Below, in pieces: positions 12,605-31,663 of a stretch of DNA of 64,000 nucleotides. Position 1 is the stretch's first letter; each line of letters opens with the position of its first letter. A program made the translations under genes and the position numbers. The notes under the pieces were generated by a model. The model worked only from the letters and a program-made list of their open reading frames with translations. It did not search any database and was not told the DNA's origin. Origin of the DNA: Arcobacter suis CECT 7833 (lineage in GTDB: Bacteria; Campylobacterota; Campylobacteria; Campylobacterales; Arcobacteraceae); NCBI RefSeq assembly GCF_003544815.1, contig NZ_CP032100.1, positions 496,001 through 560,000 of the forward strand. Direction: 5' to 3'.

Positions 12605-12834
12605 TCTTCTTCCTTATTTTTTAACTCAACTTTTTCTTCTGAAGATTTCTTCATAGGACAAATAGAACCTTTTAATTCATCTAAATTTTCTTTTGTTTTT
12701 TCTAAAGTAGTATTTGCAAAATCTTTTGATTTTTCAAATAGTTTTGAAGTTTTTTCTTTTAAATTATCTCTATTTTTAAAAGCAATAACAGCACCAGCAC
12801 CAACAGCCAATCCTAATATAAATGGTAAAGCCAT
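12601..12834 (-). CDS. Small YtxH-like membrane protein
   Basis: The 77-residue protein has an N-terminal glycine-rich membrane helix (FILGLAVGAGAVIAFKNR), a long Lys/Glu amphipathic helix, and a Cys-Pro-Met motif near residue 58 (GSICPMKK) before an acidic tail. The YtxH-type pattern of one glycine helix plus coiled coil is common in stress and envelope proteins. AGGAG lies just before the ATG and overlaps the end of the upstream ferritin-like gene. Third gene of the operon; function unknown. Confidence 0.7.
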   Translation of the reverse strand: MALPFILGLAVGAGAVIAFKNRDNLKEKTSKLFEKSKDFANTTLEKTKENLDELKGSICPMKKSSEEKVELKNKEEE

Positions 12835-16985: not shown

Positions 16986-18680
16986 TTAAACCTCTATACT
17001 AAAAGAAGCACCTTTATCTTTATTAAAAACTTTTATTTTTCCTTTAAAATGTGATTCTATAATCATTTTTGACATATAAAGACCAATTCCACTTCCTTTT
17101 TGTTTTGTTGTGAAATATGGATCAAATATGTGATTTATGTATTTGTTTTCTATTCCACCTGCATTGTCTAAAATAGTAGTTATTATTGAGTCATTTTTTT
17201 CGTTTATTGAAATAATTATTTTCGGATTTTGTATTTGTCTTGAAATCAAAACATCTTTTGCATTTGTTAAAATATTTAAAATTACTTGAGAATATTCATT
17301 TTCATAAGCATTAATTTGTTTATCTTTTATAACATTAAATTCAAATTCTATTTTGTTACTTTCAAAAATTGGTTCCATTATTTCTAAAGCTTTTTTTACA
17401 GCAACACTGATATAAAAAATCTCTTTTTGTTTATTTGGTTTATAAAAGTCTCTAAAATTATCTATAGTTTTGGACATAAAATCTAGTTGAGCATTTGATT
17501 CTTCAATTTTTTCTTTTAAATATTTTTTATCCAAAGGTTCATCTTCAAAAGCTAATTGTAAATTCATATTTATAAAACCTAAATGTGTTAAAGGTTGTCG
17601 CCATTGATGGGCAATATTGTTTATCATTTCTCCCATTGAGGCTAATTTACTTTGATGAATTAGAAGTTTTTCTTTTTCATTTTTTTCTTCAACCATTTTT
17701 TTTAGGGTGTATCCAAGAGCAAAACTAAAAATTAAAGATTCAATTGGTGCTGATAGATGTACGGTATAAATTCCACTAATTTCAATTGAATCAAGTTCTG
17801 TTAAAAAAAGAAATAGAAAAACAATAAACCAACCTAATGTATAAACTATATGAAGATAGTTTTTTTGAAATACTGAAATTAAACCTGCAAGTGTTGATAT
17901 AAAAAAACTTACATAAAATGGCATATATTCATATAAAATTGAATATTTAAAAATAAAAATAGCAAAAATATCAAGAATATTTACTCCTATTAGAATCAAT
18001 ATTATTTTATTCATAAAAGGCATAGTAACTTTAGTATTTAAAACTTCCTTTGCAAATAAAAGAGTAAAAAGTAAACTTCCTGTTTCAAAAATATCAGTGA
18101 GAGCTTGTTCAAGAGTTGTTACATATGATTTATAACTTAAATAAGTAAAAGCGCATAATGTTAAAAGAACAAAAAGTTGCATAATTGAATAATATAAAAA
18201 ATAACGAGTTTGTGAAGAAAAATAGATAATCAAATAGTACAAAAACGCACAAAAAATTATTCCATAAGCTACTCCATACAAAATTCCTTCATATTTTAAT
18301 AAATATTTATATTCAAAATTATTTATATATTTCCAACGAAATTCAGCTTGTTTTGACTCTTTATATTTATATTTAAAAAAAAGTTCTTTTTTTTGATATT
18401 TATCTAGTTTTATTACCATAATATCATTGATTGTTTCATATATTGCATTTGTATAAATTAGACTTTTTTCATCTGAAACTATAGTCAGATAATAAGTTTC
18501 ATCTTTTAATTGTTCTAAATTAACATCAAATTTTATTGTAAATTCTGAGAGTTGTTTATCTCTATATTCAAAAAAAGATAAATCTTTAAAATTTATATGA
18601 TCTTCTGCAACATAATCTTTTATTAAATCACTGCTAAAAAGATTTGAGAAAAAAAGAGTAAAAAGGATTAAATATTTCAT
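16986..18680 (-). CDS. Sensor histidine kinase with 7TM-DISM sensor
   Basis: The mature form has a signal peptide, a periplasmic DISM-type beta domain (about 20-125), seven membrane helices (about 130-335) and a cytoplasmic kinase: H-box GEMINNIAHQWRQPLTHLG (about 350-367), N-box NILTNAKD, G1 DNAGGIE and G2 GSGIGLYMSK. I start at the ATG at 18680, which gives the signal peptide MKYLILFTLFFSNLFSS, instead of the ATG two codons earlier. A TATAAT box lies exactly six bases before 18680, so the mRNA is probably leaderless and the upstream ATG would not be transcribed. It pairs with the divergent response regulator at 18758. Confidence 0.88.
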   Translation of the reverse strand: MKYLILFTLFFSNLFSSDLIKDYVAEDHINFKDLSFFEYRDKQLSEFTIKFDVNLEQLKDETYYLTIVSDEKSLIYTNAIYETINDIMVIKLDKYQKKELFFKYKYKESKQAEFRWKYINNFEYKYLLKYEGILYGVAYGIIFCAFLYYLIIYFSSQTRYFLYYSIMQLFVLLTLCAFTYLSYKSYVTTLEQALTDIFETGSLLFTLLFAKEVLNTKVTMPFMNKIILILIGVNILDIFAIFIFKYSILYEYMPFYVSFFISTLAGLISVFQKNYLHIVYTLGWFIVFLFLFLTELDSIEISGIYTVHLSAPIESLIFSFALGYTLKKMVEEKNEKEKLLIHQSKLASMGEMINNIAHQWRQPLTHLGFINMNLQLAFEDEPLDKKYLKEKIEESNAQLDFMSKTIDNFRDFYKPNKQKEIFYISVAVKKALEIMEPIFESNKIEFEFNVIKDKQINAYENEYSQVILNILTNAKDVLISRQIQNPKIIISINEKNDSIITTILDNAGGIENKYINHIFDPYFTTKQKGSGIGLYMSKMIIESHFKGKIKVFNKDKGASFSIEV

Positions 18681-18686
18681 AATCAT

Positions 18687-18757: not shown

Positions 18758-19444
18758 ATGAGTATAAATGAATTTAAAAATATAAAAATTTTATTTGTTG
18801 AAGATGAAGATAATATTAGAATAAATGCTACTTCATATTTAAAAAGATTATTTGATGAGGTTTATGAAGCAAAAGATGCTTTTGAAGCTTTTGAAATAAT
18901 TGAGTATAAAAAACCACATATAATAATTACAGACATAAATATGCCTAAAATAAATGGTTTAGAAATGATAAAAAAAATCAGAGAAAAAGGTTTAGATACA
19001 AATATTATAGTTTTAAGTGCATTTACCCAAACTAGTTATTTATTGGAAGCTATTGAATTAGGACTTGTAAAATATTTAGTAAAACCAATTCGGCATGAAA
19101 CTATTTATCCTGTTTTAACTCAATGCGTAAAAAAAATTAAAAATGATAATTCAAATATAAAATATTTTTCAAAAGATTGTTATTTTGATATGTTAAATAA
19201 AATATTAATAAAAGATAATCTAAACATAAAACTTACAAATAAAGAGTCAGATTTATTATCTTTATTATGTGAAAATAAAAATCAAACAGTTTTTTATGAA
19301 ACAATTGAAGCTGTAGTTTGGAATGATTCTTTTATGAGTGAAGATGCTATTCGTTCGGTTGCTAGAAATCTAAGAAAAAAACTTCCAAGAAATTGCTTGG
19401 AGAATTTTTCTAAAATTGGATATAAAATAGTTACTTTAGATTAA
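18758..19444 (+). CDS. Response regulator with receiver and OmpR-like DNA-binding domain
   Basis: The 228-residue protein has a receiver domain (about 10-125) with acidic pair E-D-E near 17-19, phospho-acceptor Asp in TDINMPKINGLEM, Ser/Thr in VLSAFT and Lys in YLVKPI. A winged-helix region follows (about 145-228) with VVWNDSFMSEDAIRSVARNL and GYKIVTLD at the end, typical of Campylobacterota OmpR-type regulators. It is divergent from its probable kinase at 16986. There is no Shine-Dalgarno sequence before the ATG; a TATAAT six bases upstream suggests a leaderless mRNA. It converges with the TolC-like gene at 19448. Confidence 0.88.
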   Translation: MSINEFKNIKILFVEDEDNIRINATSYLKRLFDEVYEAKDAFEAFEIIEYKKPHIIITDINMPKINGLEMIKKIREKGLDTNIIVLSAFTQTSYLLEAIELGLVKYLVKPIRHETIYPVLTQCVKKIKNDNSNIKYFSKDCYFDMLNKILIKDNLNIKLTNKESDLLSLLCENKNQTVFYETIEAVVWNDSFMSEDAIRSVARNLRKKLPRNCLENFSKIGYKIVTLD

Positions 19445-19447
19445 AGT

Positions 19448-20605
19448 TTAACCCATTTGGAAATATAAAAATAAAATCTCTTTTTTAATATTTAGTTTAT
19501 ATTTTTCTATATCAAGATTTCTTATCTCTTTTGAGTTTTTCAAAGTATCTACATCTTCGATTGCTTTAAATCCAGCAGCATATTCTTCTTGATTTAACTG
19601 TAATAATTCTTCATAAAGTTTAATATCATTTTGTGCTAAATTAATTCTTTGTTCATATTGTTTTATTGTTTCAAAAGAAGTTTCATAGATTTTTTCTAAT
19701 TTAATATAAGTTAAATCTTCTTCTTTTTTATTTTGTAAAAAAACTAATTTTGAGTGTTGAATATCATTTGAAGACGTTAAACTCAAGGGAATACTAACAC
19801 TTGCTCCATATTTATAATAGTCATCGACATTATCATTTGTATCTGAATTATTGTATCCAGCCGTTCCATTTATTTTAAAAGATGGTAAATAACTACTTTT
19901 TGTTTTTTGATATTGGGTTTGACTAATTTTTGATTCCATTTGGGCATATTGTTTTTGTGAAGATTTATCTAAAAATTCTTCTTTAGAAATAAGAGAAATA
20001 TCTGGTAAATTGATATTTGAAATATCATATGAAGTTAGTTTTTTTATCTCATTTTGGTATTTTACTTTTTCTAGCATTAATTCCATTTTTGTATCTTCAA
20101 GAAGATTTTTTGTCATAATTGCATCATTTAAATCGCTAATATCACTCTCTCCATTTTTATATTGAGATTTTTTTATACTAACTTCAATTTCTTTATTTTT
20201 AACATTTAAAATATTTTGTTTAATAGTAAGATTATTTACTAATAAATTTATAATATTGCTATATAACAAATATAAATCATCTTGATTATCCATTTGTATT
20301 TTTAGAGCCTCTTGGCTAAAAAGATAATTTGCATAATCAATTTTGGCGCTTATCCCACCAAAATTATAAACTTCTTGGGTTAAACTTAAAGAGTAATCTT
20401 TACTTTCAAAGTTTTCATTATCTTTACTTTGACTAACACTTAAATCAATATCACTGAGCCAATCATATTGATTTACTTTTTGTTTTTCTTCAATACTTTT
20501 GATTTTAAGTTCTTTTATTTCATTTTTTAAAGGTAATAAAACACTAATTTCTTCTTTTGCAAAAACTATAGAAACAAAAAAAATAGGTAACAAAAATCTT
20601 TTCAT
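19448..20605 (-). CDS. TolC-family outer-membrane protein of an RND pump
   Basis: The 385-residue protein has signal peptide MKRFLLPIFFVSIVFA and two TolC-type repeats; the first carries Q-E-V-Y-N-F-G-G and the second YLPSFKINGTAGYN (about 235-250). It is the third gene of an RND-adaptor-TolC operon; its ATG overlaps the adaptor stop (TAATG). Size and sequence resemble the TolC-like protein of the MacAB-type operon at 4395, suggesting old duplication. Export substrate unknown. Confidence 0.87.
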   Translation of the reverse strand: MKRFLLPIFFVSIVFAKEEISVLLPLKNEIKELKIKSIEEKQKVNQYDWLSDIDLSVSQSKDNENFESKDYSLSLTQEVYNFGGISAKIDYANYLFSQEALKIQMDNQDDLYLLYSNIINLLVNNLTIKQNILNVKNKEIEVSIKKSQYKNGESDISDLNDAIMTKNLLEDTKMELMLEKVKYQNEIKKLTSYDISNINLPDISLISKEEFLDKSSQKQYAQMESKISQTQYQKTKSSYLPSFKINGTAGYNNSDTNDNVDDYYKYGASVSIPLSLTSSNDIQHSKLVFLQNKKEEDLTYIKLEKIYETSFETIKQYEQRINLAQNDIKLYEELLQLNQEEYAAGFKAIEDVDTLKNSKEIRNLDIEKYKLNIKKEILFLYFQMG

Positions 20606-21303
20606 TATTTAAACTCCACATTTACACTTTGACCAAAATCTTTTGAGTCAATTTCAATTTCAGCTTTATATGCTGAAATAAAAGTTTTATCAGGTGTAAT
20701 ATCTAGTTTTTTTATAGTAGCATTTGATTTTTTACCATCTAAATAAATCTCTTTGGATTTTATATCTTTATAATCTTCTTTATTTAAATACAATACAAGC
20801 TTTGCTTTACTTGTATCATAAGCGGTTGCTATTTTTGTACCTGCGTTTACATAATCATATTTATTTACAATAAACTCTTTTAGATATAAATTATTTAAAG
20901 TTATCTCTTTTTTATTTAAGATGTCTTTTGTGTTTGTTATTGAAAGTTCAAGATTTTTTATACTATTTTTTAATTCAATAATTTGCATATATTTTTCATC
21001 TTTTTCATAATCACTTTTTCCAGTAATTGTTTTGTATTTATTGTAATAATTTTCCAAAATTACAAGTTTTTCATTTAAAAGTTTTAGTTGAGTTTGATAA
21101 AGATTTAAATTTTCTTTTTCAAGAACATTATCAATTTTTACAATAACGCCATTTACTATACTCATCTCTTTTGTTTTATCAAGAAAAGTAATTTCTCCAT
21201 TTGTATTTGCATATATACTAAATTCGTCTTTTGGTTCGATTTTTGCTATATAGTTATTGGCAAATAAAAGAATTGGAAGTAGTAGAAAAAAATATCGTAT
21301 CAT
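20605..21303 (-). CDS. Short periplasmic adaptor (membrane-fusion protein) of the RND pump
   Basis: The 232-residue protein has a signal peptide or anchor (MIRYFFLLLPILLFA), a first lipoyl half (EFSIYANTNGEITFL), a helical hairpin (about 60-130), the second lipoyl half (FIVNKYDYVNAGTKIATAYD) and a small beta-barrel. It is short for an RND adaptor, which usually has 350-400 residues; the membrane-proximal domain seems missing. AAGGA precedes the ATG. It lies between the RND transporter and TolC genes, so an adaptor role is very likely. Confidence 0.78.
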   Translation of the reverse strand: MIRYFFLLLPILLFANNYIAKIEPKDEFSIYANTNGEITFLDKTKEMSIVNGVIVKIDNVLEKENLNLYQTQLKLLNEKLVILENYYNKYKTITGKSDYEKDEKYMQIIELKNSIKNLELSITNTKDILNKKEITLNNLYLKEFIVNKYDYVNAGTKIATAYDTSKAKLVLYLNKEDYKDIKSKEIYLDGKKSNATIKKLDITPDKTFISAYKAEIEIDSKDFGQSVNVEFK

Positions 21304-21305
21304 TT

Positions 21306-24300
21306 TTAGTCCTTGATTTTAAATAAAGTTGCAAAAAGTGCAGGAACATAAATAAGGTTCAAAATAGTTCCCCATAAAATACCAAATCCTAAAGAAACGG
21401 CAATTGGTTGAAGCATCACAGATTCTCCTGTTGGGAAAAATATTAGAGTAAATAATCCTAACATAGTTGTTATTGAGGTTATTAAAATAGGTCGAACTCT
21501 AAGTCTAGCTTTTTCAAAAAACTCTTTTCTAGTTCTTGTATGATGTAAAAAATCTAACATAATAATTCCATCATTAATTACAACTCCTGCAAGTCCTAGC
21601 ATTCCTATCATTGATTGAGAATTTAGATTTATTCCTATAACAAAATGCCCAATAATTGGACCTAAAATGCTAAAAGGAATAACAGAAAGAATAATAAATG
21701 AACTTTTAAAAGAAGGGAAAATAGTCAATAAAGTAATAAAAATTAAAAACATAGCTACTAAAAAAGCTTTTATTAAATCAAATGCCATTTGTTCACTTTT
21801 TTCTTTTTCTCCACCAAAATTAATATTAACACCATCATTTTTTATGGTATTAATATTTTCTTCTAATAGATTTAATACTTCTGTTGAATTTACAATATTA
21901 TTATCAACATTTGCTAATACTTTTTTATAAATCTGTCCATTTATTTTTTCAATCTCTTCAAAGTTTCTTTCTATTTTAAAATCCACAACTTCTTTTAATT
22001 GAACAAATTGTTTATTATCTAAAGGAATATAAAAGTTTTTTAGTTCATTTAAACTATCTTTATATATTGATTTTGTGGTGATTTTGATAATTCCATCTTC
22101 GTTAAAAGTATTAGCTTGTTCTTTTTCTAAAAAGAAACTATTTATTGCATTTGCTAAATTACTATCTGTTAATCCAAGTTGTTTGCCGTAAGAATTGATA
22201 ATATATTTATATTCACTTTGTCCAAGTACCGTATTATCACTAATATCTTTAACTCCATTAATTGTGTGAAGTCTTTCTTTTAATTTTTCAATACTTTGGA
22301 TTAGTAATGTAGTATTTGCACTATTTAAAAGAATTTCAATATCAGTTGTTACTCCACCAATTCTATTTGTTGTTACATTATGTTCAACAGCATTATCTTC
22401 TTTTAGTAAAGGATTAATTAAATCTCTTATCATATTTATAGCTTCATTTGAGGTGATTAATCGAACTTTATTAGTTCTTTGAAAATCAAAACTTAGATTT
22501 AAAATAGGATTAACATAATTTTCTAAAAAGTTGTTTTCTCTAAAATCTTCAAGCTCTAACAAAAGAGTAAATCCATTTTCAATTGTTTCACTAGAATCAG
22601 TTATATCTTCATAAAATCCAACAGTTGTGTTTATATTTTTAATGTATATCTCTTTTGCATGATTTGATAAAGCTTCTTCATATTTTTTTGCAATTTGATT
22701 AGTGATTTCAATAGGAATAGAATCTTCAAGTTTGACTGATAATTTAATATTATTTGAGTCCATATCAGGGAAAAGTTGAAATCTACTACTTTGAATAAGT
22801 AAAATAGAAACTATAGGAATAGTTATAAAAAAAGTGATTAAAAAACTTCTTTTGTATTCAATAACTTTATGCAAAACCATTTCATAAAAATTATAAAGTT
22901 TTGTCCAATCTAATTGTTTTTCGTTGGCTTTTAAAATCTGTTTAGAGTGTAAAGGTAAAAATAAAAATGATTCAAGAATTGAAGAAATTATTAAACAAGA
23001 GATTATAATAGGAATAAGTTTCATTAAAAGACCCATTTCTCCACTTATAAACAGCATTGGTAAAAAAGCAAAAATTGTTGTTAATCCTGCAATTATTACA
23101 GGAGCAATCATTTGTTTTGTACCTTTTAATACAGCATCATTAATCTTATAACCATCATCGAGGTATCGTTGAATATTTTCACTTATGATAATAGCATCAT
23201 CAACAACAATCCCCAAAGCAATTAACATAGCCATCATTGATACCATATTTAAACTATATCCCATTATTTCAATAAACAATAAAGCAATAACAAATGAAAA
23301 AGGAATTCCTAAAATAATTACAAATGAAAGTCTTGGACTTATCAATATATACATTGCAAGTCCAACTAAAATAAGCCCTAAAACAATATTTGAAAGAATA
23401 GTTTTGATTCTTTCTTGAATAGGAGCTGAGTTATCCCTTGAAATACTTAAAGATATATCAGAATTATTTTGTTCGGTTTTTTTCAATAATTCTTTTATAT
23501 TTTCTACAAGTTTTATACTATCTCCATATTTATCTTTATAAACACGCAAAGTTATAGTATTTTCACCATTGAGTCTAGCAATCGTCTCTTTTTGTGGATA
23601 ATCAATAGAAATATTAGCAATATCGCTTAAATAAACTTTTTTATCATCTACTTTTATAATACTATTTTTCCAAAACTCTTCATTAAATTTGTTATTTTGA
23701 GCACTCAAATAGATATGATTACCAACTTGTTCAATATTTGCTACTGGATAAATATAAGATAATTGAGATATTGCATCTATTACGCTAGAACTATTTAGTC
23801 CATACATATTAATTTTTTTTGTATCTAACACTAAATCAATTTGTAAATCAGCATCGCCGTAGTTATTAACTTTACTAACATGTTCAATTTGCATTAAAGA
23901 TGTTCTTAAATTACTTGCAATTTTAATTAATTCTTTTTGTTCATATTTTGAAGAGTTTAATGAAATAGTTAATAATGACCACCCATAATCAATACTTCGA
24001 ACAGTAGGTTCTGTCATATCAGAAGGAAAATATCTTTTTGCAGCACTAACTGCATCTTTTATTTCATTGATTTTTTCAATTTTATCAACACCATCTTGTA
24101 GTTCAATTTCAATAGAAAAATATCCAGAATGAATAAAAGAGTTTATTTTTCCTAAGCCAGAAATAGAGTTAATTTCATTTTCAATTTCACTTACTGCAAA
24201 ATTGTTTAAATTATCAGCACTAGCTCCACTATATGAACCTTCAATTTCTATCATTTCAAGTTCAGTTGAAGGAAAAATTTCTTTTGGAATTTTAGTGTAA

Positions 24301-24386
24301 GAAAAAATCCCAAGGATTAATATAAAAACTAATATCGTATGATTTAAGTGGGAATTTTTGAAAAAATAATTGATTATTTTGTACAT
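21306..24386 (-). CDS. RND-family efflux transporter (AcrB-like, HAE/putative hydrophobe-amphiphile)
   Basis: Inner-membrane proton-driven pump of 1026 residues with the two-fold RND plan: helix 1 (about 15-30), a large periplasmic porter loop, helices 2-6 with ALGIVVDDAIIISENIQRY carrying the helix 4 Asp-Asp pair, then helix 7, a second loop, and helices 8-12 with GLAGVVINDGIIMLDF. The helix 4 acidic pair is the proton relay. It is co-directional with an adaptor and TolC gene and follows the transposase-like gene by 32 bp without a clear promoter. HAE-type sequence suggests organic substrates rather than metal ions, but substrate is not determinable. Confidence 0.9.
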   Translation of the reverse strand: MYKIINYFFKNSHLNHTILVFILILGIFSYTKIPKEIFPSTELEMIEIEGSYSGASADNLNNFAVSEIENEINSISGLGKINSFIHSGYFSIEIELQDGVDKIEKINEIKDAVSAAKRYFPSDMTEPTVRSIDYGWSLLTISLNSSKYEQKELIKIASNLRTSLMQIEHVSKVNNYGDADLQIDLVLDTKKINMYGLNSSSVIDAISQLSYIYPVANIEQVGNHIYLSAQNNKFNEEFWKNSIIKVDDKKVYLSDIANISIDYPQKETIARLNGENTITLRVYKDKYGDSIKLVENIKELLKKTEQNNSDISLSISRDNSAPIQERIKTILSNIVLGLILVGLAMYILISPRLSFVIILGIPFSFVIALLFIEIMGYSLNMVSMMAMLIALGIVVDDAIIISENIQRYLDDGYKINDAVLKGTKQMIAPVIIAGLTTIFAFLPMLFISGEMGLLMKLIPIIISCLIISSILESFLFLPLHSKQILKANEKQLDWTKLYNFYEMVLHKVIEYKRSFLITFFITIPIVSILLIQSSRFQLFPDMDSNNIKLSVKLEDSIPIEITNQIAKKYEEALSNHAKEIYIKNINTTVGFYEDITDSSETIENGFTLLLELEDFRENNFLENYVNPILNLSFDFQRTNKVRLITSNEAINMIRDLINPLLKEDNAVEHNVTTNRIGGVTTDIEILLNSANTTLLIQSIEKLKERLHTINGVKDISDNTVLGQSEYKYIINSYGKQLGLTDSNLANAINSFFLEKEQANTFNEDGIIKITTKSIYKDSLNELKNFYIPLDNKQFVQLKEVVDFKIERNFEEIEKINGQIYKKVLANVDNNIVNSTEVLNLLEENINTIKNDGVNINFGGEKEKSEQMAFDLIKAFLVAMFLIFITLLTIFPSFKSSFIILSVIPFSILGPIIGHFVIGINLNSQSMIGMLGLAGVVINDGIIMLDFLHHTRTRKEFFEKARLRVRPILITSITTMLGLFTLIFFPTGESVMLQPIAVSLGFGILWGTILNLIYVPALFATLFKIKD

Positions 24387-24418: not shown

Positions 24419-25018
24419 TTAAAATATATGAAAATGGTTTAATACCCTTTCATATATCTGCCCATTTGAGTGATTAAATCTAAAAAAAGACTCTTTAATA
24501 TGATCTTGAAGATTTTCTTTTTTTATGCCTCTAAATTTTTTTAGACGAGTGTCAATAAAAGTTTGTACGCTAGTATTTGTAGTATAAAACCCTAAAATCG
24601 TAAAATTCTTAGTATATTTATTATAAATAAGTCGAACAGAATTGTTTTTTTTATGGTTTACAAAAGTTTGTTCTAGCTTATTTTGTATAAAACTATTTAT
24701 ATTTGGGAAAATAAAACTTTCTTTATCTAAAAGAACAATTTTATTTTCTTCTTGAAGAAAATAGATATTTTTTTCATAAATTTTCATATAAGTAATATTC
24801 AAATCAATTTCACCATTTTTTGAATTAATATAAGAGTCAAATAATATTTCTCTAAATATTTTGTAGTAACTATTAATTGTTTGTCTACTTATATTTAATT
24901 TCTCTGCTGTTTGACTTGCTGTAAAATCTTTTGAAAAAAAGTAGCAAATTTTCTTTAACTGAGAAGTTTCAATTTTAATCTTATTTGTAATGATATTTTT
25001 GTTTTCTAATCTTGACAT
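24419..25018 (-). CDS. Transposase-derived (IS1595-type) HTH protein lacking catalytic residues, putative regulator
   Basis: About 199 residues. The N terminus has a helix-turn-helix (KDFTASQTAEKLNISRQTIN). The C terminus keeps the IS1595 transposase ending, R-L-K-K-F-R-G-I followed by ESFFRFNHSNGQIYE, and the middle still shows the G-E-I-D strand. The DDE residues appear lost: the D-E-S-Y-F-G-G block expected after the E-I strand reads L-N-I-T-Y-M, the central Asp is missing and the H-I-N-G-I-E-N-F block reads N-T-S-V-Q-T-F. The frame is intact with no inverted repeats at its edges. I start at ATG 25018, which lies six bases after a TATACT box. It may now act as a DNA-binding regulator of its neighbours. 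Confidence 0.65.
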   Translation of the reverse strand: MSRLENKNIITNKIKIETSQLKKICYFFSKDFTASQTAEKLNISRQTINSYYKIFREILFDSYINSKNGEIDLNITYMKIYEKNIYFLQEENKIVLLDKESFIFPNINSFIQNKLEQTFVNHKKNNSVRLIYNKYTKNFTILGFYTTNTSVQTFIDTRLKKFRGIKKENLQDHIKESFFRFNHSNGQIYERVLNHFHIF

Positions 25019-25024
25019 AATCAC

Positions 25025-25059
25025 AGTATATATAAAAAAAATGGCTAAAAAATGGCTAA
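25025..25059 (-). promoter_or_regulatory. Promoter of the transposase-derived gene with tandem TTAGCCAT repeats
   Basis: On the minus strand, TATACT (25030-25025) ends six bases before the ATG at 25018, so the transcript is probably leaderless. Upstream, two copies of ATGGCTAA (25041-25048 and 25052-25059) start exactly 11 bp apart, one helical turn, as expected for a tandem operator. Confidence 0.45.
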
Positions 25060-25116
25060 TTCAAATATTTTAAGTAAAGTTTCATTCCTTGTCATGAGTC
25101 TTTTTTGAATCAGAGT

Positions 25117-25167
25117 ATATTAAGTTAAATGTGGAAATAATTCCACCTATTAATGAGACTAATTATC
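25117..25167 (+). promoter_or_regulatory. Regulatory region of the first TonB-dependent receptor
   Basis: A TATATT -10-like box (about 25117-25122) is followed by an inverted repeat GTGGAA-ATAA-TTCCAC (25131-25146) and a Fur-type site GAGACTAATTATC (25155-25167, two mismatches). The GTGGAA palindrome is a candidate operator for the adjacent transposase-derived protein. Confidence 0.45.
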
Positions 25168-25192: not shown

Positions 25193-25309
25193 TTGCGAAA
25201 TATAAAAAGAAGAATAATTCCACTATCACTTTGTCTATCAATGATTTTAGGAAGCCAATTATTTGCTGAAAATACAGATACTTTACTTGAAGAAGTAGAA
25301 GTTTCGGAA
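25193..25309 (+). repeat. Duplicated signal-peptide coding segment, copy 1
   Basis: These 117 bp and 27344-27460 differ at only about 13 positions by hand count and align without gaps, including an identical 30-base stretch, while the downstream plug and barrel coding sequences are dissimilar. Confidence 0.75.
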
Positions 25310-27304
25310 AATAATAATTACTATATTGAGAATGGTGTAACGGAAGGAGTCGATTCATATACTACTAAAAGTATGAGTACTTCTACAAAAGTTGATTTAT
25401 CTCCAAAGGATACTCCTCAAACTGTAATGGTTTTTACAAGACAAAAACTTGATGACCAGAATATAACTTCTTTTCAAGATTTATTAGCAAAAACTCCAGG
25501 TGTTACAATAAATAAATGGGATGAAAGAGTTATGCCTACAGCAAGAGGTTTTAGTGTAGATTATTATTTATTTGATGGAATGCCTACTTATCAACAAACT
25601 GCAAATGATATAGATTTAGCTATTTTTGATAGAGTTGAAGTAGTTAAAGGTGCAAATGGATTGATGACAGGTGCTGGAAATCCAGCTATGGGGATGAATT
25701 TTATTAGAAAACATGCAAATTCTAAAGAATTTGTTGGAACAGCAAATTTATCTGCTGGTTCTTGGAATAATTATAGTTCTACGGTTGATATTCAATCTGC
25801 TTTAAATGAAAAAGGAAATATTAGAGCAAGACTTGTTGCTAAACATCAAGATAAAGAATCATATATGGATAATTATGAAAAATCAACAGATGTTTTATAT
25901 GGTGTGGTTGATATGGATTTAACTGATACTACATATTTGTCTTTTGGTGGAGGTTATGAAGATTTACAAAGAGATGGTGTACGATGGGGAGGATTACCAG
26001 CTTTTTATACTGATGGAACAAGGACAAGTTTTGATAGATCAAATACAGTTTCAGGCGATTGGACATATTGGGATGTTAAAACTAAAAATTATTTTGCAGA
26101 TTTGAAACAATATGTTTATGATGATATTTCTTTAAATTTATCAGTATCCAATCGAGAATTTGATACTGATACAAAACTTGCATATTTTAGTGGAAAAGTT
26201 AATAAAGCAACAGGACTTGGAACAGGCTCTCCTTCTCGATATACAAGTGAAAGAACAGAAAATGAAAATAATATAGATTTATATGGTTCTATACCTTTTG
26301 AAATAGCTAGTTTAGAACATGAGATAGTGGTAGGAACAATGTATAACAAACATAAAGTAACAAAAGATAATTGGGCGAATGCAAATCTTACAAATGTAAC
26401 AGTAGATGTTTTAAATATAGAAAATCCATATTCAAATTGGACTTCTAGCGGTAATAATGTATTAAATCAAACAACACAAAAAGGTACATATTTAGCTGGA
26501 AAATTTTCTTTAATGGAAGATTTAAAACTTATAAGTGGATTTAGGGTCTCAAATTGGGAATATGAAGTGGCAAATGGAGTAGGAAATAGAGAATTTGAAA
26601 ATGAAATAACTCCTTATGTTGGGTTGATTTATGATATTGACAATAATCACAGTATTTATACTAGTTATACAAATATTTTTAAACCACAAAGTTTTAAAAC
26701 AGCTAATGGAGATTATTTAGATCCTGTTGAGGGACAAAGTCAAGAAGTTGGAGTAAAAGGTGAATATTTTAATGGAAACCTAAATACTTCAGTTTCATTA
26801 TTTAAAATTGAACAAGATGGTGTTGGTGAAAAAATTGATGGCGTATTTGTTGTTAATACAACTGAATCAGCTTATAGAGCAGCTAGTGGTGTTGAGAGTA
26901 AGGGTATTGAATTTATTGCATCGGGAAAACTTACTGATAATTTAGGCTTAGATTTTGGTTTAGCAAACTTTGAGGCGAAAGATGCAAAAGGTAATAAATT
27001 TAATACAGATTCTTCGAGAACAACAGCAAATTTATTTGCTAAATATACTATTAATGATTATCGATTTGGTGGTGGAATAAATTACAAAAGTAAAATATAT
27101 TCAGGCACAGGTGTTAATGAAATCGCACAAGATGGATATTTTACAAATGATTTAATGGCAGGATATAAAATTAATAAGAATTTTGATTTGCAATTAAATG
27201 TTAATAACATATTTGACAAAGTGTATTATGAAAGACTTGGGGCTAATTCTATGGTTTATGGTGACCCTAGAAATGCCACACTAGGGATGAAATATACATT
27301 CTAG
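25193..27304 (+). CDS. TonB-dependent siderophore receptor (FpvA/FoxA-like)
   Basis: Outer-membrane receptor of 703 residues. It has a signal peptide (MRNIKRRIIPLSLCLSMILG), a plug domain with KDTPQTVMVFTRQKLDD and the siderophore-receptor block VKGANGLMTGAGNPAMGMNF (about 150-172), and a 22-stranded barrel ending in the aromatic C terminus (L-G-M-K-Y-T-F). There is no N-terminal signalling (STN) domain, so it does not use a FecI/FecR-type cascade. The TTG start follows AAGGA. The signal-peptide region is nearly identical in DNA to that of the next receptor. Substrate is probably a hydroxamate-type ferric siderophore by resemblance; a Fur-type site lies upstream. Confidence 0.9.
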   Translation: MRNIKRRIIPLSLCLSMILGSQLFAENTDTLLEEVEVSENNNYYIENGVTEGVDSYTTKSMSTSTKVDLSPKDTPQTVMVFTRQKLDDQNITSFQDLLAKTPGVTINKWDERVMPTARGFSVDYYLFDGMPTYQQTANDIDLAIFDRVEVVKGANGLMTGAGNPAMGMNFIRKHANSKEFVGTANLSAGSWNNYSSTVDIQSALNEKGNIRARLVAKHQDKESYMDNYEKSTDVLYGVVDMDLTDTTYLSFGGGYEDLQRDGVRWGGLPAFYTDGTRTSFDRSNTVSGDWTYWDVKTKNYFADLKQYVYDDISLNLSVSNREFDTDTKLAYFSGKVNKATGLGTGSPSRYTSERTENENNIDLYGSIPFEIASLEHEIVVGTMYNKHKVTKDNWANANLTNVTVDVLNIENPYSNWTSSGNNVLNQTTQKGTYLAGKFSLMEDLKLISGFRVSNWEYEVANGVGNREFENEITPYVGLIYDIDNNHSIYTSYTNIFKPQSFKTANGDYLDPVEGQSQEVGVKGEYFNGNLNTSVSLFKIEQDGVGEKIDGVFVVNTTESAYRAASGVESKGIEFIASGKLTDNLGLDFGLANFEAKDAKGNKFNTDSSRTTANLFAKYTINDYRFGGGINYKSKIYSGTGVNEIAQDGYFTNDLMAGYKINKNFDLQLNVNNIFDKVYYERLGANSMVYGDPRNATLGMKYTF

Positions 27305-27343: not shown

Positions 27344-27460
27344 ATGAAAAATATTAAAAGAAAAATAATTCCACTATCACTTTGTCTATCAATGATATTA
27401 GGAAACCAATTATTTGCTGAAAATACAAATACTTTACTTGAAGAGGTTAATGTTTCAGAA
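27344..27460 (+). repeat. Duplicated signal-peptide coding segment, copy 2
   Basis: Partner of the segment at 25193-25309; the identity stops abruptly after the E-E-V-x-V-S-E codons. The abrupt edge fits gene conversion or domain swapping of the leader region. Confidence 0.75.
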
Positions 27461-29452
27461 ACTGCACAAAATGGAACTGCTGAAAATGGATATGTGGTGA
27501 AAGAGACAACTGGAATCGGAATTTGGGATAAAAGAAGTTTGCAAGATACTCCTTATCAAATGAGCATAGTTTCACAAGATATGATAGAAAACACTGCAAG
27601 TGGAATTGACCAAATTTTTAAAATGAATCCAGTTGTTCAAGTAACAAGAACTTCAACTTCTTCTCATAGTTGGAATACACCTGAAATAAATATAAGAGGA
27701 TTTAGTGCTTCAGGAAATCACATTTTAGATGGTATACCATTTTCTTGGGTAGAAGGGGTTACAACAGAAGAACTTGAAAGAATAGAAGTATTAAACGGAC
27801 TATCTGGATTTTTATATGGTGTTGGATATGTAGGAGGTGCAGTTAATTATGTAACAAAAAAACCGACATTAGAAAGAATTACAGATTTAACTATTGGAAG
27901 TACTGGAAATGAAGCAGCTTATATACATGCTGATTTAGGTGGAAAGATTGATGAAAAAGGAAAATTCTCTTATAGATTAAATGCTTTAAAACAAGATGGT
28001 GAGACTTCTATAAAAGACCAAAATATAGATAGAGAATTAATAACTGGAGCATTAGATTGGAGAGTAACTGATGATTTACTTTTAACATTTGATGCTTCGC
28101 ATAAAGAGAATAAAACAGATAAATTAACTGCTTCGTTTTCTAGTAATCAATCTGCAAGTATTTTAGATCCAAAACAAGGATATTCACCTGCTTGGACATT
28201 TTCTGATACTTCTCAAGATAGATTAGGATTTAAATCTTTATGGCAGATTAATGACAATGTAAAACTTAGAACTGGATATATCCATCTTGAACATGAAAAT
28301 GATATGTCTATGTCTTACGTATATGATAATTATGATGGAACATACAGACTTAACTATTATAGGGCTTGGCCTCAGACATCAACAACTCAAGGTGCTTATG
28401 TTTATACAGATATTGATTTTGATACTTTTGGAATTGAACATACCTTAACAATTGGTGGTTCTGGGAATAAAAAGAAAAGTAATAGTATTGATGGTGCTTG
28501 GGAATGGGTTAATTTAGGTAATTATACATTAGACCAATTAAATAATGTATCAAAACCAACTTATATCGGTAGTACTAATAATAAAACTTATTTATCTAGT
28601 CGTAATGAAAAAACAAATCTTATGGTTGGTGATGATATAAGATTTAATGACCAATGGAGTGCATTAGTTGGATTTAATTATGCAGAAGTTGAAGAAAAAA
28701 ATTACAATATTAATGGTGAAAAAACTGGTGGATATGATGCAAATGATATAACACCAAGTATATCTTTAATCTATAAACCATTTGAAGATTTGACAACTTA
28801 CACAACATATATGGAATCTTTAGAAAGTGGTACTATTGTTGGAGATTTATATTCAAATGCTGGAGAAATCTTTGACCCTTATGTAAGTAAACAATATGAA
28901 GTTGGAGCAAAATACTCTATTTCACAAAATTTACTTTTAAGTTCAGCATTATTTAGAATTGAAAAAGCAAATTCATATGAAGAACAAACTTCTTCAAAAC
29001 CAATATTAACTCAAGATGGATTAGTAATTCACCAAGGTTTAGAGCTAACGGTAACTGGAAAATTAACTGATAATCTTACCGTTGTAACTGGTGGAACAAT
29101 TATGGATTTAGAAATAGATAAAGCTGAATCAAATGAAGGTAAAAAACCTACAAATGTAGCTTCTAAAATGGCAAAACTTTATACCGAGTATAATATTCCT
29201 ACGGTTCAAGGTTTAGCATTAACTGGTGGAGCTTATTGGACAGGAGAATCATATAGAGATGGCGCAAATACAGATGTTATTCCATCTTATACAGTTTATG
29301 ATGGAGGATTCAGATATAAAACTAAATTAGATAAATATTCGACAACTTATATCGTTAATGTTACAAATCTAACTAATAAAGAGTATTGGAGAGGTTCAAC
29401 ATCTTTTGGTGAACCTAGAAATATAGCTTTATCTATGAAAGTAGAATTTTAA
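27344..29452 (+). CDS. TonB-dependent siderophore receptor, second copy
   Basis: Outer-membrane receptor of 702 residues. The signal peptide MKNIKRKIIPLSLCLSMILG is almost the same as that of the preceding receptor. The plug has LQDTPYQMSIVSQDMIEN and NINIRGF-like blocks, EVLNGLSGFLYGVGYVGGAV (about 150-170) and a barrel ending in a final Phe (MKVEF). There is no STN domain. It follows the first receptor by 40 bp with AAGGA before the ATG, so they are probably co-transcribed. The mature sequence is clearly different, implying a different ferric chelate. Confidence 0.9.
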   Translation: MKNIKRKIIPLSLCLSMILGNQLFAENTNTLLEEVNVSETAQNGTAENGYVVKETTGIGIWDKRSLQDTPYQMSIVSQDMIENTASGIDQIFKMNPVVQVTRTSTSSHSWNTPEINIRGFSASGNHILDGIPFSWVEGVTTEELERIEVLNGLSGFLYGVGYVGGAVNYVTKKPTLERITDLTIGSTGNEAAYIHADLGGKIDEKGKFSYRLNALKQDGETSIKDQNIDRELITGALDWRVTDDLLLTFDASHKENKTDKLTASFSSNQSASILDPKQGYSPAWTFSDTSQDRLGFKSLWQINDNVKLRTGYIHLEHENDMSMSYVYDNYDGTYRLNYYRAWPQTSTTQGAYVYTDIDFDTFGIEHTLTIGGSGNKKKSNSIDGAWEWVNLGNYTLDQLNNVSKPTYIGSTNNKTYLSSRNEKTNLMVGDDIRFNDQWSALVGFNYAEVEEKNYNINGEKTGGYDANDITPSISLIYKPFEDLTTYTTYMESLESGTIVGDLYSNAGEIFDPYVSKQYEVGAKYSISQNLLLSSALFRIEKANSYEEQTSSKPILTQDGLVIHQGLELTVTGKLTDNLTVVTGGTIMDLEIDKAESNEGKKPTNVASKMAKLYTEYNIPTVQGLALTGGAYWTGESYRDGANTDVIPSYTVYDGGFRYKTKLDKYSTTYIVNVTNLTNKEYWRGSTSFGEPRNIALSMKVEF

Positions 29453-29771: not shown

Positions 29772-30077
29772 ATGAAAGAATTAATAAAAAACTTATCAAC
29801 CCCAGAACAAAGTGGAAAAAGAATTGGGTTATTTAGAACTCTCTGTGCTATTTTCGGAGGACTTTTAGTAGCTTATTTAGGAATGACTTTACTTCTTTAT
29901 ATAATTCCAGGAACTCCTGGTGAATCTATTATCGTTCCTTTACTTCTTAATACCATGGCTTGGGCAGGAGTTGCTTTATGGATAAGTGTTTCTTCTACTA
30001 AATTAAGTGCAATATTGAGAGTTGTAATTCCTTCTTTGATATTTTCAATTCTTATAGCTATTTTATATAATATTTAA
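29772..30077 (+). CDS. Small three- to four-helix inner-membrane protein of iron uptake (DUF3649-like)
   Basis: The 101-residue protein has hydrophobic segments at about 20-47, 52-74 and 80-100, and a short cytoplasmic N terminus (KNLSTPEQSGKRIGLFR). It resembles the small membrane proteins (DUF3649 type) that precede PepSY membrane proteins beside TonB-dependent receptors. AAGGA lies before the ATG. It is followed nine bases later by the PepSY gene, so they form one unit. Confidence 0.7.
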   Translation: MKELIKNLSTPEQSGKRIGLFRTLCAIFGGLLVAYLGMTLLLYIIPGTPGESIIVPLLLNTMAWAGVALWISVSSTKLSAILRVVIPSLIFSILIAILYNI

Positions 30078-30085
30078 GGTAAAAA

Positions 30086-31663
30086 ATGAACGAAAATTTA
30101 GAAAAAGAATCAAATAAACTATTTAAACAAAGACTCCAAAGAGTTCATGTGGCAACGGGAATAAGTTTTTCTTTACTTATGTATGTGGCTGTATTTTTTG
30201 GAGTATTTGCTATTTTATTACCTTATATTCAAGTTTGGGAAAAACCTTCACGGCATTATCAGATAGCTGATATTACGAAAATAGATTATGGTTCTATGAT
30301 TGACCCCGTTTTAGCAGATTCTGATTATCCAAAAATGAATGGTGTTACTATTATTCTTCCAGGTTATATGGAAGATCCATCTCTTAGAATTAGAGCTCCT
30401 TATACAAAAACGAGAGTATTTAATCCAAATACAAATCAAGAAGTAGAAAATGAAGATGACCAATCAGAATTAGCAAGATTTTTAAATCACATGCATTATG
30501 GAAGACCTTTTAAAGATGTTGGTTATTTAATATTTGGTTTTACGGCTGTTGCTTGTATGTTTTTGGTTATTGGTGGAGTTATTTTAATCTTGAAAATAAA
30601 ATACAAAAATGATGGTAAAAATCCTGCAAGTAAATTTTCAAAGTGGCATAGAAAAATTTTTACTTGGGTATTTCCTCCTTTTATTATTATCACGCTAACG
30701 GGTGCTTTTATGAACATAGGATATGATGGTTCTGCTCCTATGACTTCCCTTGCTTCAAAAGGTGAAACAAGTCGAATTTTTCAGCTTACTGAACCGATTC
30801 TTTTTCCTGAAGAGCCAAAAATAGAAAAGAAAAATGACACTGCTTTAATGCTTCCTATGAATGAATTAATCAAAAAAGCAAAACAGATAAATTCAGATTT
30901 AGATTTTCAAAGAATAGAATTAATTAATTGGGGTGATTCAAGTGCTACTGCAAAACTTGAGGGATATAATCCTTATATGCCATTTTTAAATGGTATTTCA
31001 AATAAACCTAGTATTACTCTAAGTGGAGTTGATGGAACTTTAATAAGTGAACACAAAGTAATGGATAAACATTGGAGTGGACTTTTTTATGACAGTATTT
31101 TTTTCCTACACTTCTTATTTGGTGTTGATACTTTTACTAGATTATTTATTGCAACTTTAATGACAATTTCTAGTTTTGCTTTAGGTTTTGGAGTTTTATT
31201 ATGGCTTGAAAAAAAGGCTAGAAAATTCCCAAATCATATCCCCGTTTATCAATGGATGGGAAAATTATCACTTAGTGTGATGATAGGGGTGATTCCTGCA
31301 ACTGGATTTTTATTTGTAAGTCAATGGTTATTTCCTTTTGATTTAGAAAATAGGGTAGCTTTACAAAAAGGGCTTTTTGGTCTTTTTTGGTTAGCAACTT
31401 TAACTTGGTCTTTTTATCGATTAAATTCATATCAAGCTGCAAAAGAGTTTTTAATTTTAGGTGGAATTTTATTTATTTTAAGTCCAATTATTCACTTTAT
31501 TAATAGTGGATTTTCACCAATACAACTTTGGAATGAAAATATGTTTAATATTTTAAGCGTTGATATTGGTTTATTTATTTTTGGTGTTATTTTACTTTTT
31601 GTGGGAATAAAGTTACCCCAAGATAGAGTTAAAGTTCAAGAATTTTGGGCTAAGAAATTTTAA
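30086..31663 (+). CDS. PepSY-associated multi-pass membrane protein
   Basis: The 525-residue inner-membrane protein starts with the PepSY_TM hallmark RVHVATGISFSLLMYVAVFF (about 20-45) and has a periplasmic loop, a helix pair near 150-210, a second long periplasmic PepSY-like region (about 215-335) and four or more helices to the end. Members next to siderophore receptors are thought to act in reduction or release of ferric iron in the periplasm; related FoxB/FegB-type proteins are the model. His residues at helix edges (for example F-K-x-W-H-R-K) fit haem or metal binding. Operon with the preceding and following genes. Confidence 0.82.
   Translation: MNENLEKESNKLFKQRLQRVHVATGISFSLLMYVAVFFGVFAILLPYIQVWEKPSRHYQIADITKIDYGSMIDPVLADSDYPKMNGVTIILPGYMEDPSLRIRAPYTKTRVFNPNTNQEVENEDDQSELARFLNHMHYGRPFKDVGYLIFGFTAVACMFLVIGGVILILKIKYKNDGKNPASKFSKWHRKIFTWVFPPFIIITLTGAFMNIGYDGSAPMTSLASKGETSRIFQLTEPILFPEEPKIEKKNDTALMLPMNELIKKAKQINSDLDFQRIELINWGDSSATAKLEGYNPYMPFLNGISNKPSITLSGVDGTLISEHKVMDKHWSGLFYDSIFFLHFLFGVDTFTRLFIATLMTISSFALGFGVLLWLEKKARKFPNHIPVYQWMGKLSLSVMIGVIPATGFLFVSQWLFPFDLENRVALQKGLFGLFWLATLTWSFYRLNSYQAAKEFLILGGILFILSPIIHFINSGFSPIQLWNENMFNILSVDIGLFIFGVILLFVGIKLPQDRVKVQEFWAKKF

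Follow-up and report, generated by a model that had tools for sequence, protein, structure and literature searches.

The window analyzed here is a 64,000-nt stretch of the Arcobacter suis CECT 7833 genome (contig NZ_CP032100.1, positions 496,001 to 560,000), and its features are collected in table 1. The gene of interest, referred to here as REG, is an intact open reading frame (ORF) of 199 codons on the minus strand, with its ATG at 25018 and an in-frame GTG two codons upstream of it. As described in the initial annotation, REG lies between an RND pump and TonB receptors, having an AcrB-type permease gene on one side and two tandem TonB-dependent receptor (TBDT) genes on the other. Genes for a response regulator (RR) and a sensor histidine kinase (HK) are present within 8 kb of REG, and a plasmid relative of the presumed outer-membrane partner of the permease is annotated as belonging to the TolC family.

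Table 1. Genes, protein regions, and DNA sites of the REG locus (window coordinates)
Feature	Position	Strand	Evidence
Sensor histidine kinase (HK) gene, 7TMR-DISM sensor region	16986..18686	-	Pfam
Response regulator (RR) gene, Response_reg + Trans_reg_C, OmpR/PhoB type, probable activator of REG	18758..19444	+	Pfam, repeat distribution
Presumed RND outer-membrane partner gene	19448-20605
Presumed RND adaptor gene	20605-21303
AcrB-type RND permease gene, same-strand neighbor downstream of REG	21306..24386	-	ORF, Pfam
REG, 199-aa protein, predicted catalytically dead IS1016/IS1595-type transposase derivative and putative transcription factor	24419..25018 (stop included)	-	ORF, family, absent DDE blocks, dN/dS
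REG C-terminal block RLKKFRGI...RFN, residues 158-182, common to intact IS1595-type transposases	24473..24547	-	alignment, profile matches
REG middle domain, residues 71-145, strands and one helix, where the DDE core is expected; catalytic blocks missing	24584..24808	-	patterns, AlphaFold2
REG HTH, residues 18-59; recognition helix 45-59; residue 46 is Gln (codon 24881-24883)	24842..24967	-	AlphaFold2 secondary structure, conservation, covariation
Direct repeat AGCCATTTTTTAGCCATTTTTTTT preceding REG, 11-bp units in tandem, probably the box of the PhoB-type RR	25034..25057	-	sampler, matrix scan, distribution
Composite box TTGTCATGA-N23-TAAG-N10-AAATAAT before the TBDT gene, probably the operator of REG, joined with the receptor promoter	25089..25141	+	conservation, pattern, covariation
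TonB-dependent receptor (TBDT) gene, PF00593 + PF07715, probable REG target	25193..27304	+	Pfam
Second TBDT gene	27344..29452	+	Pfam
Gene pair for a 101-aa protein and PepSY_TM, with a composite box of its own in G003 and G013	29772..31663	+	

The helix-turn-helix (HTH) of REG has a weak Pfam match (HTH_11, E 9e-4, below the HTH_11 cut-off), and two weak NCBIfam matches were obtained, both far under their cut-offs, to IS21 (E 0.0033) and to IS1595 (E 0.0063), the best stretch of the latter covering residues 158-183. An AlphaFold2 model built from seq​uences of seven proteins (pLDDT 79.6, pTM 0.76) places the HTH helices at residues 18-29, 34-41, and 45-59, followed by three strands, a helix, two strands, and three helices. 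Foldseek returned no match to this model below 1e-3. The VIA Z scores of the model reached a maximum of 6.2. Nearly all of these matches fall in residues 65-149, and most are to ATP-grasp-like domains, perhaps reflecting just a common arrangement. The middle domain may retain a ruined RNase H-like core, with which the model is compatible without displaying it. A control model for an intact transposase, at pLDDT 54.1, was too poor for comparison with the REG model, and solved structures searched with the REG sequence gave weak matches only, the best of them (E 0.048) to an HTH regulator.

The origin of REG is indicated by a profile of its relatives. This profile picks up intact IS1595-type transposases by their HTH and C-terminal block, with both parts matched in L088, L110, L112, L113, and L114, in keeping with the earlier claim that these two regions of IS1595 transposases survive in REG. 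Intact members of the IS1016 type were located in other Campylobacterales genomes and in one Oscillospiraceae contig, and two intact transposases match PF12762 (DDE_Tnp_IS1595) at 5.5e-30 and 2.5e-25. The catalytic blocks of the intact transposases agree with the IS1016 signature, published as DESYFG ... TD....Y ... NGIENFW ... ECEFRFN (PMC12561309). Patterns for the three catalytic blocks (DE[SV]YFG, [ST]D[GCK][WL], and NGIE.FW) and for the basic loop were present in all four intact transposases versus none of 28 REG relatives, so that by sequence the DDE residues are changed, as first noted; the catalytic-block patterns were likewise missing from four rows of class C and seven rows of class B, two further lineages taken up below. 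PF12762 at E <= 0.01 was found in none of the 22 REG relatives scanned with Pfam and had no match in the A. suis genome, and a PF12762 search of 104 genomes included no REG gene among the places listed.

The flanks of REG also differ from those of insertion sequences (ISs). Exact terminal repeats of 16-19 bp were found in five of the six IS copies tested, intact or broken. All exact flank repeats of the window REG are shorter than 12 nt, those of 12-18 bp at 4 of the 30 REG genes are AT-rich and unlike IS ends, and a search of the window for one IS end, tolerating up to 3 mismatches, gave 0 matches, which upholds the initial statement that no terminal inverted repeats flank the gene. An inverted-pair scan of this AT-rich stretch listed 17 pairs. 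The pair at 24419-24432 and 25060-25073 (14 nt, 93%) brackets REG and was rejected as IS ends, being nearly all A+T and unlike the ends seen in IS copies. Given the missing catalytic blocks and the missing IS-like ends, REG is on sequence grounds a catalytically dead derivative of an IS1016-type (IS1595 family) transposase and not an active IS1595 element, since DDE blocks, terminal inverted repeats, and a PF12762 match are all absent. It shares with the IS1016 subgroup the N-terminal HTH and the C-terminal RLxKFxGI...RFN block, and differs from intact members in lacking catalytic blocks and IS-like ends, in its shorter middle region, in its single copy per genome (two in G091), and in its recurring neighborhood.

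Searching 104 Arcobacteraceae genomes gave matches in 41, of which 29 have clear REG relatives at 34-79% identity. In total these 29 hold 30 REG genes, one in A. suis itself and two in G091. The 12 other matching genomes had weak matches only, and those with surroundings examined are IS remnants or class B. Within the genus the distribution is patchy (5 of 31 genomes). The match in G013 consists of two pieces flanking a masked run; the 28-row alignment and tree omit this REG (run of N) and that of G086 (X letters), both of which were retained for the analysis of upstream sites. In the tree the 28 REG rows form one side of a branch with support of 100/97. A single-protein REG query found no related loci in genome contigs and an alignment query found eight, while a REG query of viral contigs found none. 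A REG relative on plasmid pACLO of Arcobacter cloacae is annotated as “hypothetical protein.” The whole REG/RND/TBDT/RR/HK block, together with further TBDT-PepSY sets, is present on a 189-kb plasmid of this species (L215, NZ_CP053834.1 128189-152785).

REG genes are not scattered copies with IS ends, an arrangement that the initial annotation had also contemplated, and they recur in the company of TBDT, two-component, and TonB genes. A TBDT gene lies divergent to REG in 22 of 30 cases (21 relatives and the window); among the other eight, an RR gene is divergent in two and REG lies downstream of another same-strand gene in six. Among the 28 loci retrieved for the other REG genes, HK is present in 27 and RR in 26, and in G029 the RR lies ~9 kb from REG. 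No sigma/anti-sigma pair was found among the labeled neighbors.

Conserved blocks in the REG-TBDT gap first became apparent from aligned close relatives, and they make up a composite box that reads toward the TBDT gene. Its most conserved core, TTGTCATGA, is 46 bp upstream of AAATAAT, a presumed -10 element that is followed by what we take, by eye, to be a Fur-box-like sequence. In scoring the box over 20 letters, either G or A was accepted at base 3 and either A or T at base 9, and the spacing could be 22-24. It is present in all 22 divergent REG-TBDT gaps, with 18-20 of the 20 letters and a spacing of 22 or 23, and in none of the eight other REG upstream regions (at most 15 of 20 letters). 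Allowing up to one mismatch, we found 26 places in 22 of the 104 genomes, all 22 of them REG-bearing; none of the 75 genomes without REG had a match, and a reversed control pattern gave two matches across the 104 genomes. The window has a single match, against an expectation of 0.01 when up to two mismatches are allowed. TBDT genes follow 23 of the 26 places and 101-aa/PepSY genes follow two, and the remaining place is on a short contig with no ORF called and interrupted TBDT frames downstream. Places distant from REG were found at 4 kb (G064), at 5 kb (G003 and G013), and on another contig (G084).

By the fixed pattern, 7 of the 29 REG-bearing genomes are without the box (G031, G032, G086, G087, G089, G091, and G095). 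G091 does have one with a 22-nt spacing, and the remaining six have no TBDT divergent from REG, which may have another target there. With the composite pattern relaxed, 7 of 26 genomes had matches; those in G000 (A. suis), G064, and G091 are the known sites, and those in G011, G033, G086, and G087 have no AAATAAT and look like chance. A terminator-like stem at 25131-25146 was rejected as a terminator, as it overlaps the box end and is taken to be part of the partly palindromic GGAAATAATTCC. Part of the co-occurrence of REG and box is due to linkage, the REG and TBDT genes often being passed on together. We interpret the composite box as a protein site that is probably read by REG.

A second type of conserved site precedes REG itself. 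Upstream of REG genes are two nnCATTTTTT-like units at an 11-bp period, with a TATA-like box after them. Gibbs sampling, designed to accept a single site in each sequence, recovered this repeat at 26.2 bits versus 9.9-10.8 in four mononucleotide-shuffled sets. In a leave-one-locus-out scan of the fetched loci, with close relatives retained, the REG repeat had the top score in its locus for 29 of 30 genes, the exception being the first gene of G091, where it came third. Left-out scores were 17.9-32.1 in 28 of 30, the weak ones being 14.1 (first gene of G091) and 8.2 (G089). In the window, a weaker match is present at 12829 (+), with a matrix score of 21.7 versus 32.1 at REG. The promoter of its own that the initial annotation ascribes to REG is supported here by the conserved repeat and the TATA-like box that follows it, to which a sigma-70 scan adds nothing (nine promoter-like sites versus a shuffle mean of 8.1, i.e., no excess). 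The region 25025-25167, proposed there as the DNA to be bound, can now be refined to the probable REG operator at 25089-25141, with 25034-25057 more likely an RR box.

Across the 104 genomes a strict repeat pattern occurs at 32 places in 30 genomes (two matches for a reversed control): 18 at REG, two at feoA-feoB, three at TBDT genes in REG-less genomes, one at an RR/HK pair, and eight without evident link. A looser pattern (3 mismatches) gave 522 matches in whole genomes versus 304 for its reversed control and was not usable. Among the 31 genomes of the genus, nine have a close RR orthologue (at least 69% identity), and all nine have the repeat (eight by the strict pattern and G011 by matrix), as against none of the 22 others by the strict pattern. 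In three REG-less genomes, G012, G014, and G030, the repeat is directly before TBDT genes. Half-site type (CAC or other) tracks RR residue 200, in the presumed recognition helix, in 27 of 27 comparisons, from which G091 (L036) was omitted and to which L038 (G089), having no RR on its short contig, did not contribute; residue 119 fits equally well, columns 6 and 100 are higher by a maximum-entropy measure, and the agreement is largely one clade split, with lineage effects possible.

PhoB boxes are tandem, with an 11-bp period. The neighboring RR has the Response_reg and Trans_reg_C domains of PhoB/OmpR-type regulators, and the repeat has the same period and is located just upstream of the TATA-like box; the difference is that in REG-bearing genomes the box is before an ex-transposase gene and not before a transporter gene. 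Because the repeat precedes TBDT genes in REG-less, RR-bearing relatives and tracks RR residue 200, it is probably the box of the neighboring PhoB-type RR. Autoregulation of REG via the repeat was our leading reading at the outset and was set aside, as the repeat is also found before receptor genes in REG-less genomes.

Several occurrences of the repeat merit mention individually. In G031 and G032, both with REG, it is 36 and 48 bp upstream of feoA-feoB (L039:10464 - and L043:10392 -), which suggests that ferrous iron uptake is part of the same circuit there. The REG-less G011 has RR and TBDT, with the repeat in the gap in REG orientation, facing away from the TBDT (L245:2190-2440), and this may be a trace of a lost REG. 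In the REG-less G030 (L176:1585-1660), the TBDT behind the repeat carries ten consecutive G near its start, where the frame is broken, through either phase variation or a sequencing slip. The repeat in G057 (L161:1501) precedes a different RR/HK pair.

Taken together, we consider it likely that REG is a dead transposase which, under the control of HK and RR, regulates the receptor gene through the composite box. A transposase ancestor would have kept its DNA-binding N-terminus and C-terminal block and lost its DDE core to become a transcription factor. The 7TM HK and PhoB-type RR would turn on REG via the tandem repeat at its promoter, and REG would bind the composite operator in the promoter of the TBDT siderophore receptor gene and thereby control the receptor. 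The sequences themselves show the loss of the catalytic blocks, the recurrent gene neighborhood, purifying selection in close pairs, and the two DNA sites with their distribution and their covariation with REG and RR; we infer within this model the physical binding, the order of the cascade, the signal, and activation over repression. Of four REG-less genomes of the genus with the same RR, three have the repeat before a receptor gene, so REG looks like an inserted layer, or a layer lost from those genomes.

REG is more likely an activator than a repressor of the receptor, judging from the distance between TTGTCATGA and AAATAAT. It could instead read the composite box and repress the receptor, with RR or Fur supplying the remaining control, as the composite spans the presumed -10 element and a protein over TAAG-AAATAAT could block polymerase. 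However, the core is at a usual place for an activator, and the RR box precedes the receptor in REG-less relatives, where RR would activate, both points being drawn from position; repression by REG thus seems rather unlikely.

The assignment of REG to the composite box is further suggested by covariation between base 3 of the box and residue 46 of REG, which the AlphaFold2 model places second in the recognition helix. In REG-adjacent boxes, Gln46 occurs with G in 17 of 17 cases, and Val46 (four) or Pro46 (one) with A in 5 of 5. Residue 46 is the best few-letter predictor of base 3; columns 148 and 170, each carrying many letters, split the bases as well. This covariation amounts to two changes, because Val46 is confined to one clade of four genomes and Pro46 to G003, and there is a counter-case in G084, where the box on another contig is the A/T variant though REG has Gln46. 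The close relatives G003 and G013 are informative at finer scale: base 3 is A at both G003 boxes and G at both G013 boxes. In the parts compared, which exclude the masked run of G013, their REG proteins differ at residues 18, 23, 26, 46, 48, 63, 66, 72, and 80 (two further listed positions border that run), and in HTH helices 2 and 3 solely at 46 and 48. Their RRs have 14 differences but are identical from residue 146 to the end. No RR column fully separates box base 3, the best reaching 0.78 in 21 rows, with G091 again omitted.

Exchanged roles, with REG reading the repeat at its own promoter and RR reading the composite box, would fit the presence of the repeat upstream of REG whatever the neighbor and its overlap with the REG promoter. 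Against this, the repeat precedes a TBDT in three genomes that have RR and no REG, and follows RR residue 200. In addition, the composite box is absent by pattern from G011, G012, G014, and G030, all with a close RR and no REG, and it differs between G003 and G013 along with REG residue 46 while their RR DNA-binding regions are identical. We therefore regard an exchange of roles as improbable and retain the composite box as the probable site of REG and the repeat as that of RR.

Sequence constraint was assessed in both close and distant REG pairs. The window REG has dN/dS values of 0.123 and 0.141 with its two nearest relatives, which give 0.139 between each other, and in close pairs pN/pS is lowest in the HTH (0.06 and 0.14). 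These values show purifying selection in the close pairs. With the distant G003, dN/dS rises to 0.449, and pN/pS is 0.36 in the HTH, 0.83 in the middle domain, and 0.40 in the C-terminal part, based on which constraint over longer spans is weak in the middle domain. A 22-row alignment has 20 positions that never vary: M1, ten in the HTH (F28, D31, T33, A34, S44, R45, T47, N49, Y51, and R56), and nine in the C-terminal part (R158, K161, F162, R163, G164, E176, S177, R180, and N182). Beyond the nearest two relatives identity is 33-46%, yet these HTH and C-terminal positions do not vary.

A functionless, decaying IS remnant that hitchhikes with a mobile iron-uptake locus could account for REG on the A. 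cloacae plasmid, for its patchiness in the genus, and for the dN/dS with G003. Open frames, close-pair dN/dS of 0.12-0.14, the invariant positions, and an operator that tracks REG all speak against decay, which we consider very improbable. That REG is a still mobilizable IS1595-family element, as its HTH and C-terminal block in common with intact transposases might imply, is refuted by the missing DDE blocks and IS-like ends, the one copy per genome (two in G091), and the recurring setting, and is barely credible. Selection for DNA binding, the suggestion with which the initial annotation ended, gains support from the low dN/dS, the HTH as the most constrained part, the box confined to REG-bearing genomes, and the covariation of residue 46.

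The conversion of transposases into transcription factors is well documented in eukaryotes. In bacteria, TldR proteins are derived from the transposon protein TnpB, with catalysis lost. As described in PMC13418256, TldRs are RNA-guided transcription factors, and as transposon proteins turned bacterial regulators they are the nearest bacterial parallel to REG, differing in RNA guidance from REG with its HTH, its DDE-transposase origin, and its probable place under a two-component system. Control of TonB receptors is known from the same family as REG, since TBDT genes are targets of extracytoplasmic function (ECF) sigma factors in Arcobacter butzleri (PMC3445524); that regulator and operator are of another kind than REG and the composite box. 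The part of the open-license literature covered here describes no transposase-to-transcription-factor case for DDE-type insertion sequences of bacteria, and the REG family is undescribed in it.

Two further lineages resemble REG in having lost the catalytic blocks. Class B is a second dead-transposase-like family of ~220 aa with an N-terminal CxxC...CxxC, found in many Campylobacterales (loci L185-L214) and in A. suis itself (G000:C1:1145361-1145999; L062:7356-8015, L187). Its profile has matches in 150 of 298 genomes, some of which are other IS-like matches, and the member from G102 has a weak PF12762 match below the cut-off. A hyp hydrogenase-maturation gene is within ~1.5 kb in 23 of the best 30 loci, and it is possible that class B proteins regulate hyp genes. 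Gibbs sampling upstream of class B mostly picked the start of hypB itself. A CTTATGTATTTTTAGAACTAAAATGATAAAAT-like element, read by eye, is present upstream of many class B genes (L193-L210), some of them not beside hypB. Class C is a third dead-transposase lineage of ~200 aa from another family of the order (L099-L102, L118-L122), with gene neighbors in common at four of the five fetched loci (L118 and L120-L122); in the tree it groups with intact transposases (95/98) and not with REG.

IS1016-type transposases may have given rise to a small superfamily of transcription factors in Campylobacterota, comprising REG at the siderophore-receptor genes of Arcobacteraceae, a zinc-ribbon lineage beside the hydrogenase-maturation genes hypBCD across the order, and a third lineage in another family, with REG inserted between a two-component system and what was once the direct target of that system, a proposal on which we are evenly divided. 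If true, in each lineage the cutting core would be gone and the DNA-reading part recruited into host control. The protein, its DNA site, the covariation of residue with base, and relatives that have or lack the extra layer can all be read in genomes, so that the entry of a jumping-gene protein into an existing regulatory circuit can be tested directly. REG and the composite box are a candidate regulator and operator for the iron-receptor genes of the Arcobacteraceae.
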